Shown piece by piece: positions 6,723 through 24,755 of a DNA stretch of 34,385 nucleotides. Position 1 is the stretch's first letter, and each line of letters opens with the position of its first letter. This stretch comes from Deltaproteobacteria bacterium (GTDB lineage: Bacteria; Bdellovibrionota_B; Oligoflexia; Oligoflexales; Bog-1112). Position numbers and translations under genes: made by a program. Where the stretch lies: assembly GCA_947466225.1 (NCBI GenBank), contig CANIBL010000024.1, forward strand, positions 1 to 34,385. The letters run 5' to 3'. The notes under the pieces were generated by a model. The model searched no databases. It was not told the DNA's origin and saw nothing but the letters and a program-made list of their open reading frames with translations.

Positions 6723-7838
6723 ATGGTTCCCTATTATCCTACATGGATGGAAGTTAACCTCCATCAATTTGCTGAAAATCTGAGAACCATCAAGTTGTAC
6801 TTGGGTTCCACTCTATTCTGTTTGCCAGTGAAGGCCAATGCGTATGGCATGGGATTACTGTCCATGAGCCAAGCAGCCCAGAAAAATGGGGTGGAATACT
6901 TGGGGGTATCCAGTTGCCAGGAAGGGGTGCTATTACGAAAAAGTGGAATCCACATCCCCATTTTGGTTTTTGGTGCCTTACACGAGCCAGAAATAGCCTC
7001 TTTGTTGGCATATGATCTCGAATTCACTATTAGTTCAATTTTTAAGGCTCAGCAAGTACATGCCCATTTGCAACGAATGGGAAAATCTTGTGCTGTACAT
7101 TTGGAGGTCGATACAGGGATGCAGCGCACTGGTATGCAGCCCCATACATTTTGGGACTTATATGAGTTTGTAAAAAGCCAATCCTGTTTTGTGATCAAAG
7201 GTATTTCCTCCCATTTTGCCAATTCAGAAGAGGCGAACTCGACTGTTACACAACATCAATTGGCCCACTTTGATTCGATTCGACGTCGTATTCTAGATAG
7301 CGAGTCCATTCTGTTTCATATCGCCAACTCGGGTGCCTTGATGCTCGGGGCTTCTCATACCTTTTGCCAGATGTCCCGCCCCGGGGGCTTGGCCTTTGGC
7401 TTGGTAGAACCCGCTGCATTGGAAAAAGGTCCTTTGCGTAGCATTCGTCCGCTTGTAACAGTAAAAAGTCGCATTTCATTTGTGAAAACAGTGCCAGCTG
7501 GAGCCGGGGTGAGTTACGGGCATACCTATGTGGCATCTCAGGAGGTGCGCATTGCAACCGTTCCCATCGGATATGGAGATGGATATCGACGAGGTCTCTC
7601 CAATCGAGGGCATGTATTGATACGGGGGGCACGATATCCCATTGTGGGCAATATTTGTATGGATCAGCTGATGGTGGATATGGGGGATGCGCCTGCATAT
7701 GTAGGAGAAGAGGTTGTGTTGCTGGGGCAGCAAGGAGCAGAAGAAATTTCTGCTTTTGAATTGGCGCATTTGTTGGATACTCATCCGTATGAGATTTTGT
7801 GTGCGTTTACGGAACGGGTGCCAAGGGTTTATGTGTGA
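6723..7838 (+). CDS. alr: Alanine racemase
   Basis: 371 aa, the usual length. It interconverts L- and D-alanine with pyridoxal phosphate and supplies D-Ala for peptidoglycan. The PLP lysine is K37 in PVKANAYGMG, and the second catalytic base is Tyr265 in GAGVSYGHTY. DTGMQRTG, GYGDGY and the CMDQLMVDM motif of the C-terminal domain are also present. GAGGAAAG just before ATG 6723 is a good ribosome-binding site. It lies 19 bp after the EEP gene and is followed by repeat element A. No other cell-wall gene is adjacent. The catalytic residues are intact. Confidence 0.96.
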   Translation: MVPYYPTWMEVNLHQFAENLRTIKLYLGSTLFCLPVKANAYGMGLLSMSQAAQKNGVEYLGVSSCQEGVLLRKSGIHIPILVFGALHEPEIASLLAYDLEFTISSIFKAQQVHAHLQRMGKSCAVHLEVDTGMQRTGMQPHTFWDLYEFVKSQSCFVIKGISSHFANSEEANSTVTQHQLAHFDSIRRRILDSESILFHIANSGALMLGASHTFCQMSRPGGLAFGLVEPAALEKGPLRSIRPLVTVKSRISFVKTVPAGAGVSYGHTYVASQEVRIATVPIGYGDGYRRGLSNRGHVLIRGARYPIVGNICMDQLMVDMGDAPAYVGEEVVLLGQQGAEEISAFELAHLLDTHPYEILCAFTERVPRVYV

Positions 7839-8025
7839 TTTTTTTCTAAGGAGAACCAACTGCATAGTTTCCTCTTAAACCCTTCCTTCCCAGGGGAGAA
7901 GATTCTGTCTGAGCGCCGACAGTCTCTCCTCATAGGATAATTTCTCAAATGCAGGCATTCTCCTACTCTTGTCCCATCCCTAGCACGGAGGTTGGGAAAC
8001 GGCGCAGCTGGTTCCGGAAAAAAAA
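7839..8025 (+). repeat. Repeat element A: inverted pair of hairpin repeats R1 and R2
   Basis: R1 (core 7853-7872) starts after a T7 run directly behind the alr stop and is a diverged copy of the repeat. R2 (core 7994-8016, GCGCAGCTGGTTCC at 8002-8015) lies in the opposite orientation and ends in A8 at 8018-8025. Between them lies GATTCTGTCTGAGCGCCG (7901-7918). That motif, extended to 21 bases, is also found on the minus strand inside element B at 24540-24560, and in both elements it is followed 16 bases later by GGAT. R2 ends only 10 bp before the transporter start and so forms its leader. No transposase is present. Function is unknown. Confidence 0.75.
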
Positions 8026-8035
8026 GAAGGAAAAA

Positions 8036-22171: not shown

Positions 22172-23290
22172 TCAAACAAAATCTGTCAAAGTTGAGCTGG
22201 GTTTTCGCTGTAAGAGTTTCCACAGCGCATTTATCTGTTCGTGTGTATGATCAGCATGCAAACAGACTCGAATGCGTTCTGTCCCCTGTTGTACTGTTGG
22301 ACTCACAATAGGTACCACCCAAAAGCCCTGTTGTTGTACCTGCTGCGTCCATGCTTGAACCGAGAGGCCCATCGGAGGGAAAAAGCTCACAATGGGGGTT
22401 GTCACTTGGGCATGTAGCATATTCGAATGCAGCTGTACGATGCGATGTCCCTCAGTTTGTAGCTGGTGTAGTCGGTATGCAATGACCTGCTGTAATATAG
22501 GGCTCATCCCTGTGGTGTAGATAAAAGAGGGGCAGAAGTTCACCACCATCTCACGCAAAAGAGTTGACCCCACTACCACCGCACCTTGACAGCCTAGTGC
22601 TTTACCCAGAGGGTAGATGCGAGCCAAGCATCGAGCTGCAACGCCCTCGTCTACGCTGAGACCGCGCCCAGTACCGAGAGTGCCCAGTGCATGAGCCTCA
22701 TCTACCACCATATGTGCATCATAGAGCTCTGCCAATTTCACCATTTTTTCCAAGGGGGCCATATCTCCATCCATGGAGTACAAGCTCTCTACCACAAGTA
22801 AAATGGCTTGATGGGGCTTGCGATGCTTGTGCAACCGCAGCAATTTTTTTTCTAGATATTCCAAGTCGTTGTGGCGAAAGTAGTAGAGTGAAGCACGACT
22901 CAAACGACAACCGGCTTTTAATGAAGCATGAGCTGCTTCATCCACCAAAAGGATATCGTCTCGCTGGCATAAGGCTGAGAAAATCCCGCTATTAAGGGCA
23001 TACCCAGAGGCAAAAAGTAGGGCGCATTCTCCCTCTAAATAGGTAGCCCACTGCGCCTCGAGTGCTTCCGTTGTCTCGCAGTTGCCAGTAAGCAATCGAC
23101 TCCCGGTTGTACCAGAATACGAAGGCGTCTGGAAAAGCCACTCCGGCAAGGGGTCACGCGCCAACCCAAGATAATCGTTGGAGGCGAAATCGATGCCTCG
23201 ATGGGCTGTGAGGGGGAGTCGACGCAAGGTACCTGTTTTTCGACGGTCCTCCAGTTGTACGCGCCATCTCTCAGTGAGGTGTGGCAGCAT
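22172..23290 (-). CDS. bioF: 8-amino-7-oxononanoate synthase
   Basis: 372 aa from ATG 23290. It condenses pimeloyl thioester with L-alanine to KAPA, the first step of biotin ring assembly, using pyridoxal phosphate. Seen: DFASNDYLGLA near the start, GSRLLTGNCETTEALE, DEAAHASL, VVDEAHALGTLGTGRGL (PLP-ring Asp and His) and YPLGKALGCQGA with the Schiff-base lysine. A TTG start at 23308 is possible, but neither start has a clear ribosome-binding site. The gene overlaps the 3' end of bioB by 20 bases, so translation is probably coupled. Converges on the exported kinase gene with a 144-bp gap that shows only a short GTCTTTTCAAAGAC palindrome. Confidence 0.94.
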   Translation of the reverse strand: MLPHLTERWRVQLEDRRKTGTLRRLPLTAHRGIDFASNDYLGLARDPLPEWLFQTPSYSGTTGSRLLTGNCETTEALEAQWATYLEGECALLFASGYALNSGIFSALCQRDDILLVDEAAHASLKAGCRLSRASLYYFRHNDLEYLEKKLLRLHKHRKPHQAILLVVESLYSMDGDMAPLEKMVKLAELYDAHMVVDEAHALGTLGTGRGLSVDEGVAARCLARIYPLGKALGCQGAVVVGSTLLREMVVNFCPSFIYTTGMSPILQQVIAYRLHQLQTEGHRIVQLHSNMLHAQVTTPIVSFFPPMGLSVQAWTQQVQQQGFWVVPIVSPTVQQGTERIRVCLHADHTHEQINALWKLLQRKPSSTLTDFV

Positions 23291-24248
23291 GGGAACCACA
23301 GGAGGCAAAAGGCGCTTTGGAGGTCAGTCCCAAATGGGCAAACATGCGATGGTCCTCTTCAGGGAGGGGATTTCCAATCGTGAGAAGTTTTTCGCCGATG
23401 AAGATCGAGTTCGCCCCCGCCAGAAAGCAGAGGGTTTGTTCTTCCAGCGTGCGCTTTTCTCGACCAGCAGACATGCGAATCATCGCAGTAGGAAAAACGA
23501 GGCGAGTGGTGGCAATCATGCGCAGCAGCTCCCAAATGGAGATGGGCTCTTGATCTGCCAGCGGCGTTCCTTCTACGGCGTACAGTGTATTGATAGGGAT
23601 CGACTCTGGCGGGGCCTCTAGCTGGCTGAGAGCCAACAGGAATCGAATCCGGTCTTCCTCTGTTTCCCCTAGGCCTAAAATTCCGCCGCAACAGACCTGT
23701 AAGTTAGCCTTTTTCACATGAGAAAGGGTGCGTACGCGATCCTCAAACTGTCGCGTAGAGATAATTTTGCTGTAATGAGAGGGGGATGTATCAAGGTTGT
23801 GATTGTAGGCATGTAAGCCGGCTTCTTTGAGGCGCTGGGCTTGGGATTCTGTTAGGAGGCCCAAGGTGCAACAGGTTTCCATACCCAATGATTTGATATC
23901 TCGTACCATCTCAATGACGCGATCAAACTGTTCGTTATCTTTAACTTCGCGCCAGGCCGCCCCCAAACACACTCGCGAGGCCCCCATGGCTTTGGCTTGT
24001 ACAGCGCGATCGCGCACTTCTTCGCGAGACATCAAAGCATGCTTTTTGAGGCCCGTATTGTATCGCGCTGATTGGGGGCAGTAGTGACAGTCCTCCGGGC
24101 ACCCCCCTGTTTTCACGGAAACAAGATGATTTACCTGAATTTCTCCTGGGTTGAAGTATTTCTGGTGCACATGAGCTGCTTCAAACATCAGACTGAGGAG
24201 GTCGCGATGATACAAAGCTGATATGCTATCAAAGGTCCATTGAGTCAT
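23271..24248 (-). CDS. bioB: Biotin synthase
   Basis: 325 aa. Radical SAM enzyme that inserts sulphur into dethiobiotin. The [4Fe-4S] motif is C50-x3-C54-x2-C57 (GGCPEDCHYCPQS). VCLGAAWR, YNHNLDTSPSHY and the SAGRE arginine motif mark BioB and the second cluster. It leads a bioB-bioF operon; bioA, bioC, bioD and bioH are not in the window. GGAG lies 10 bases before the ATG within the loop of a predicted leader hairpin. The leader also holds a 12-bp palindrome, and element B lies 195 bp upstream. Length and motifs are normal. Confidence 0.96.
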   Translation of the reverse strand: MTQWTFDSISALYHRDLLSLMFEAAHVHQKYFNPGEIQVNHLVSVKTGGCPEDCHYCPQSARYNTGLKKHALMSREEVRDRAVQAKAMGASRVCLGAAWREVKDNEQFDRVIEMVRDIKSLGMETCCTLGLLTESQAQRLKEAGLHAYNHNLDTSPSHYSKIISTRQFEDRVRTLSHVKKANLQVCCGGILGLGETEEDRIRFLLALSQLEAPPESIPINTLYAVEGTPLADQEPISIWELLRMIATTRLVFPTAMIRMSAGREKRTLEEQTLCFLAGANSIFIGEKLLTIGNPLPEEDHRMFAHLGLTSKAPFASCGSHAATPH

Positions 24249-24292
24249 GGGATGAAGTCTCCGTCATCCCCAGGCCGAGGGCCGTCGGGGAT
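24249..24292 (-). promoter_or_regulatory. bioB leader with two mutually exclusive hairpins
   Basis: Reading the bioB mRNA, hairpin I pairs ATCCCC with GGGGAT (24287-24292 with 24266-24271) and encloses GGCC-CTC-GGCC. Hairpin II pairs GGGATGA with TCATCCC (24264-24270 with 24249-24255), has the GGAG ribosome-binding site in its loop and ends at the base before ATG. The shared segment lets only one form at a time. Confidence 0.45.
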
Positions 24293-24391
24293 CTCCTTAT
24301 CGGGAGTATGGGATTATGTTGGGGTGCCTTTCGAAGCATATCCATTTTCCCTCGAGAAAGAAAGAACGGCGTACAGCAGCTTTGCCTTCAC

Positions 24392-24420: not shown

Positions 24421-24442
24421 CTTGTTTTGGTTGGCTGGGATG

Positions 24443-24731
24443 TTTTTTTGCGGAACCAGCTGCGTAGTTTCCGCACCTCCTTGCCATAAGCTGGGAGAGA
24501 AACGAGAGCATGGAGAAACATCCGAATAGAAGACGCGGCCGGCGCTCAGACAGAATCTTCCCAACCTCTAAAAATCGCAGATTAGGCTTTCGTCATGAAC
24601 ACCCAGTTTTATGGCTCCGATTTGTGACCCGCTGAACCCCTTCTGTCTGGCTGCCCGTGTTTTATACTGGGACTCTCTCCAAGCTTATGGCAAGGAGGTG
24701 CGGAAACTACGCAGCTGGTTCTGCAAAAAAA
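24443..24731. mobile_element. Repeat element B: 289-bp MITE-like element with 50-bp inverted repeats
   Basis: The left arm R4 (24443-24492) and right arm R5 (24682-24731) are inverted copies identical at 49 of 50 positions. Each starts outside with T7/A7, contains the GCGCAGCTGG-type core, and continues inward through CACCTCCTTGCCATAAGCT. The 189-bp interior holds the motif shared with element A (24540-24560, minus strand). No transposase and no clear target duplication was found. It separates divergent bioB and the kamA-like gene. A mobile or structured-RNA origin is inferred from form only. Confidence 0.7.
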
Positions 24732-24755
24732 CCTCATAAAAAAGAAAAAAAGAAG

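Follow-up and report, generated by a model that had tools for sequence, protein, structure and literature searches.

The stretch of DNA analyzed here, referred to as the window, comprises 34,385 nucleotides of contig CANIBL010000024.1 from a Deltaproteobacteria bacterium. A gap between a divergent bioB gene (23271-24248, minus strand; TIGR00433) and a KamA-family gene with its likely start at ATG 24756 is occupied by a palindromic element at 24439-24735. A repeat search places its arms at 24439-24500 and 24674-24735, each 62 nt long, 95% complementary and separated by 173 nt, and their inner 50 nt match at 49 of 50 positions. No coding ORF fills the element, no transposase is found in it, and its A-run ends about 25 bp upstream of the likely kamA ATG. 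The original prediction of 49/50 inverted arms lacking a transposase, set between divergent bioB and a kamA-like gene and reaching the kamA start, therefore holds, with arms slightly longer than proposed. One strand of the element folds at -84 kcal/mol, compared with -37 +/- 4 for shuffled sequences (z = -12), and each arm is a hairpin in itself.

Four parts can be distinguished in the element. The left terminal unit (24443-24485, minus strand) consists of a T-run, the hairpin GCGGAACCAGCTGCGTAGTTTCCGC and then, on the minus strand, a GGAG tag with GCAA; it is assigned by a pattern match at 24453-24480 on the minus strand and by hairpin covariation across copies. An internal structured module, H1, with a conserved core and internal loops, lies at 24533-24666 on the plus strand and is recognized by two covariance models (R1, 118 bits, E 6.4e-31; R2, E 5.1e-17). 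The right inner arm at 24674-24690 (plus strand) contains the deletion junction, placed by comparison with locus L002 and alignment A1, at which a second module, H2, and its flanks in full copies are missing. The right terminal unit (24690-24731, plus strand; pattern match 24694-24721) consists of GCAAGGAGG, the hairpin and the A-run. A second, decayed copy of the family is situated between two genes at 7838-8030, based on genome-search matches at 7898-8024 and 7983-8024 of the same contig (C24) and on sequence inspection. Another dispersed palindromic repeat (GTCATSCCCAGGC...GGGGATGACG) is present upstream of bioB at 24263-24296, and it is also inserted within the internal modules of some other composites (L031, ~465-595; L039, ~460-550; L036, ~395-440).

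The host genome (G000) is a draft of 2.12 Mb in 70 contigs and is 93% complete. A 316-bp query gave 129 matching pieces across many of its contigs, the best other copy being 84% identical. A pattern search for the hairpin core GAAACTNCGCAGNTGGTTC, allowing no more than two mismatches, gave 165 occurrences, whereas a reversed-pattern control gave none, and at least 27 inverted pairs of 145-504 bp could be assembled. Thirteen or fourteen elements are complete, 13 of them with cores of 492-504 bp and one of 469 bp; the others are shorter, down to 145 bp. The complete copies of about 500 bp are 80-85% alike, and the alignment of 13 of them has a mean column identity of 84%. Because contigs often end inside copies, further copies are likely hidden in assembly gaps. 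The genome search suggested originally thus returned many dispersed copies, and the absence of a second copy, named at that time as grounds for rejection, did not occur. The core of the window copy is 269 bp; H1 and both ends are kept, H2 is absent, and the copy is about 200 bp short of the full element as judged from L002 and the alignment of complete copies. By this sequence comparison, the 289-bp palindrome of the window is an internally deleted copy of a dispersed repeat of about 500 bp that carries no transposase gene. The palindrome had been recognized from the outset; its REP-like hairpin termini, the complete form of about 500 bp and the structured internal module had been missed.

The complete element has the order hairpin, H1, H2, hairpin, with its ends pointing outward, and a structured module of about 130 nt is present in it as two inverted copies, H1 and H2. 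The end unit is about 42 nt long: a GGAG tag and a spacer, short and variable, precede the hairpin GGGGAAACTNCGCAGN'TGGTTCCCC, after which come TA and an A-run of about seven; the tag sometimes lies away from the hairpin foot. The A-run has this fixed length and a sharp stop, so the homopolymer (T-run or A-run, depending on the end) probably belongs to the element terminus. TA adjoins 34 of 46 CCC-type ends, and GCGG-type ends lack it. In alignment A1 the whole-structure measures of covariation in the two terminal hairpins exceed those of shuffles (0/500 for most) and of slid controls. The N:N' pair near the hairpin tip is GC, CG or AT in this alignment and TA in one further copy, and both hairpins of the window copy carry the same broken pair (ACTACGCAGCTGGT). 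The hairpins could be read as transcription terminators; this reading was rejected because, whichever strand is read, T comes before them and A after them. Within 700 bp, the commonest neighbor arrangements at composite loci of the host are all inverted (26 pairs). Single hairpins that have no GGAG tag, with a T-run on one side and an A-run on the other, also occur in this genome (L215-L231), and some are nested within the halves of another copy's hairpin. Such tagless singles may be remnants of a deletion between two copies of CTGGGGAA, one in the left outer stem and the other in the right inner stem.

The arms of an element resemble each other more than they resemble those of other elements. 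Left arms are closer to their own right partners than to the right arms of other elements (0.806 vs. 0.753; 0/20000 permutations, z 5.3). This likeness is clearest in a stretch of 14 nt inside the hairpin; the sequences there are element-specific, yet identical in several elements. The arms are thus homogenized within each element rather than recently arrived. Since the window copy differs by at least 16% from every other copy, the identity of its arms likewise reflects within-element homogenization. Of the two explanations offered originally, that the arms were recent or were kept identical, the latter is upheld, whereas recency is at odds with a nearest copy of at most 84%. The outer stem of H2 shows a related pattern: identity between copies is only 56-58%, yet 93% of its pairs are Watson-Crick, and both partners have changed in 22 of 31 pairs (0/500 shuffles). 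These covariation counts, and the complementary changes in the long stems generally, fit selection on structure and template-switch correction alike.

At the insertion sites, direct repeats outside the ends of 25 elements were not above those of shuffled flanks (0.44 vs. 0.83 in the control), so no target duplication was detected in this set. The earlier remark that homopolymer ends and the missing target duplication set the element apart from a standard insertion sequence therefore extends to the family. The host elements show no preference for gene orientation, flanking genes being convergent, divergent or tandem, and nearly all paired copies lie beside unrelated genes. Several copies are placed at AT-rich palindromes or within the hairpin of another copy.

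The building blocks of the element also exist in two sister genera (G003 and G005). The exact tagged unit was found 57 times in the host genome, 340 times in G003, 34 times in G005 and not at all in eight other relatives; in both sister genera the hairpin units are mostly singlets. Sources of the tagged unit among the matches listed are JACPKR (Deltaproteobacteria bacterium NC_groundwater_500), JAGNWK (Oligoflexales Go_Eff_bin_111) and a Clostridia MAG. In the Clostridia MAG RGIG4141 (L128, L129, L199), a distinct repeat, a few hundred bp long, holds GCAAGGAGGTGC and GGAAACTGCGCAGCTGGTTC about 22 nt apart, the same two motifs as in the Oligoflexia unit, by chance, convergence or transfer. In the Clostridia MAG, GAAACTGCGCAGCTGGTTC lies beside GCAAGGAGGTGC within a different MITE, and most copies inspected there lack the core. 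The hairpin unit had no exact match in viral_contigs.

With a module covariance model built from the host genome alone, eight modules were recovered in G005 (E 3e-8 to 2e-4), compared with none in 41 other genomes of the order. Of 58 genomes of the class, only the host and G005 gave matches to a joint module model. The exact module pattern had no match in GTDB r220; this zero reflects exact matching only, because the covariance model later found the diverged modules in G005. Rfam 15, searched at a permissive threshold, gave no credible family for the window element, six host loci and seven G005 loci. The G005 modules are not accompanied by paired terminal hairpins, one unit lying about 70 bp away at L262, and by simple ORF calls at the eight loci, every one of them lies in the sense direction at a distance of 27-196 nt behind an ORF on its own strand. 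Identity among them is 93% in the core and drops to 39% in the outer stem, although 94% of the stem pairs are Watson-Crick; one module folds at z = -9. The module thus has a conserved core with internal loops, enclosed by an outer stem that is hypervariable in sequence but complementary almost throughout. We tentatively suggest that it may be a new structured nucleic-acid family, found in two genera so far: in one, a 3'-UTR element standing alone in the sense direction; in the other, an inverted pair captured by REP-like mobile hairpins, with arms kept complementary by DNA-level palindrome correction.

A mobilizing enzyme was sought in the three genomes, all draft assemblies. The only Y1 transposase of the host detected by a Y1_Tnp search is a TnpA of the IS605 type, next to a tnpB with a frameshift (L081, 1486-3290, contig C16), and the end hairpins of this IS605 differ from those of the family. 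A decayed family hairpin lies just beyond the right end of the IS605. In the host, G003 and G005, no RAYT was found between family hairpins, and no autonomous relative with the same ends was found around the units or around Y1 and DDE_3 genes in these drafts; an autonomous copy could be missing from a host assembly that is 93% complete. In G005, a RAYT/TIRYT-like gene (L086, 1149-2100) was considered as the mobilizer and rejected, being flanked by TIRYT-kind repeats (GGGGTCAG) and not by family ends; its flanking repeats, GGGGTCAGCC, match the published GGGGWSAS consensus. Five diverged Y1/RAYT-like genes of about 240 aa in the same genome (L093-L097) were also set aside, some having unrelated tandem repeats directly upstream (e.g., GTCGTGCCTTACTT units).

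Taken together, the family is probably a non-autonomous dispersed repeat of about 500 bp, mobile in the manner of REPINs, with hairpin ends and an inverted module pair. The terminal hairpins would be recognized as single-stranded DNA by a trans-acting enzyme, most likely of the HUH/Y1 type, that moves, or once moved, the hairpin unit. Pairs of hairpins around the inverted module pair would then have become the mobile unit in the host genus. Arm complementarity would be kept by hairpin-templated copying that corrects the palindrome, and selection would preserve the hairpin tips and the module core. An HUH-like enzyme is our first choice as the mobilizer, with a TA-targeting DDE enzyme second. 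In the latter case, the family would consist of MITEs of an IS630/Tc1-mariner kind of transposon, like Correia or RUP, with TA as the target duplication and the T-run and A-run as an AT-rich palindromic target. This is an unlikely reading, although the TA beside most CCC-type ends and the copies lodged in AT-rich palindromes or in another hairpin are what it predicts: the GCGG-type ends are without TA, the A-run stops sharply, as expected of a terminus, hairpin inverted repeats with compensatory change are atypical of DDE ends, and neither the host nor G003 has a DDE_3 gene.

An RNA explanation is still less probable. Here the copies would be a multicopy structured-RNA family that is not mobile, under locus-by-locus selection as a 3'-UTR or processing element, and duplicated by recombination. 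The conserved core and paired, variable stem of the G005 modules agree with such a family, as does their uniform sense placement downstream of genes; on the composite plus strand of the host, the H2 stem also has 14 G.T against 3 A.C. However, the host composites have no orientation relative to genes, and their modules are flanked by terminal hairpins in strictly inverted order. RNA evolution usually leaves many wobble pairs, and G.T is rare in the G005 stems (4 vs. 2 A.C, of 176 cells). This scarcity leans toward DNA-level correction, whereas the excess of G.T over A.C in H2 leans the opposite way. That the element is a fixed regulatory structure belonging to the bioB-kamA region is suggested by its position between the two divergent genes, and can be given almost no weight in view of at least 27 paired copies, nearly all at unrelated genes. 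Moreover, kamA in ten relatives has neither an element nor a bioB neighbor within 1.5 kb, and kamA neighborhoods in the family are not syntenic; the conservation at this locus in distant relatives that the original prediction regarded as a sign of such a structure is thus not seen. A lone hairpin about 70 bp upstream of kamA in G003 is compatible with chance, given the 340 copies there.

The favored reading, a mobile repeat with REP-like ends, bears on the question of what moves "orphan" palindromic repeats, as the hairpins reside in a composite of about 500 bp and no RAYT was detected for them. The family is also a clean case of locus-by-locus arm homogenization: the core is conserved at 93%, whereas the outer stem keeps its pairing at an identity of 39%. 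Experiments can distinguish here between selection on structure and correction by template switching. Its module is a candidate for a new structured family.

Several known systems share features with this family. With IS200/IS605 ends it shares subterminal hairpins, the absence of target duplication and a T-rich left flank, whereas its ends are inverted and those of the IS lie on the same strand. Correia and RUP are bacterial MITEs with TA targets. The family resembles them in size class, inverted ends, lack of an ORF and TA beside many ends, and differs in having no matching IS, covarying hairpin termini and no demonstrable target duplication. In general terms it has the properties of a MITE, being short, bounded by terminal inverted repeats, free of a transposase and dispersed in many copies. 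The MITE-like reading made initially is sound in these respects and in the internal deletions, and lacks the target duplication and autonomous relative, neither of which was found. REPINs are ascribed to the action of RAYT enzymes on single-stranded DNA (PMC3116915; PMC6006769). Like REP doublets, the family is extragenic and high in copy number, with a short hairpin (20-40 nt class) that has a tetranucleotide tag on its 5' side; as in REPINs, inverted doublets form a long palindrome, singlets occur as remnants, and compensatory changes are seen, which in REPINs affect the spacer (PMC3116915). However, the family tag is GGAG followed by a variable spacer, whereas the REP tag is GTAG/GTGG (PMC6006769), that is, GT[AG]G at the 5' foot. 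The unit is about 500 bp with two structured modules, whereas GI REPINs have a short spacer, their conserved 16-mers being 71 bp apart; the three genomes yielded no RAYT gene with family repeats on its flanks. Because neither the RAYT association nor the GT[AG]G tag was found, the family is not filed as a REPIN. CGTC-tagged REPs offer a published precedent for REP-like palindromes without a dedicated transposase gene beside them; they have another tag and sequence, and the part of that report available to us does not describe a composite element with modules (PMC3733652). By analogy with these systems, the family may be said, at most, to behave like a REPIN.
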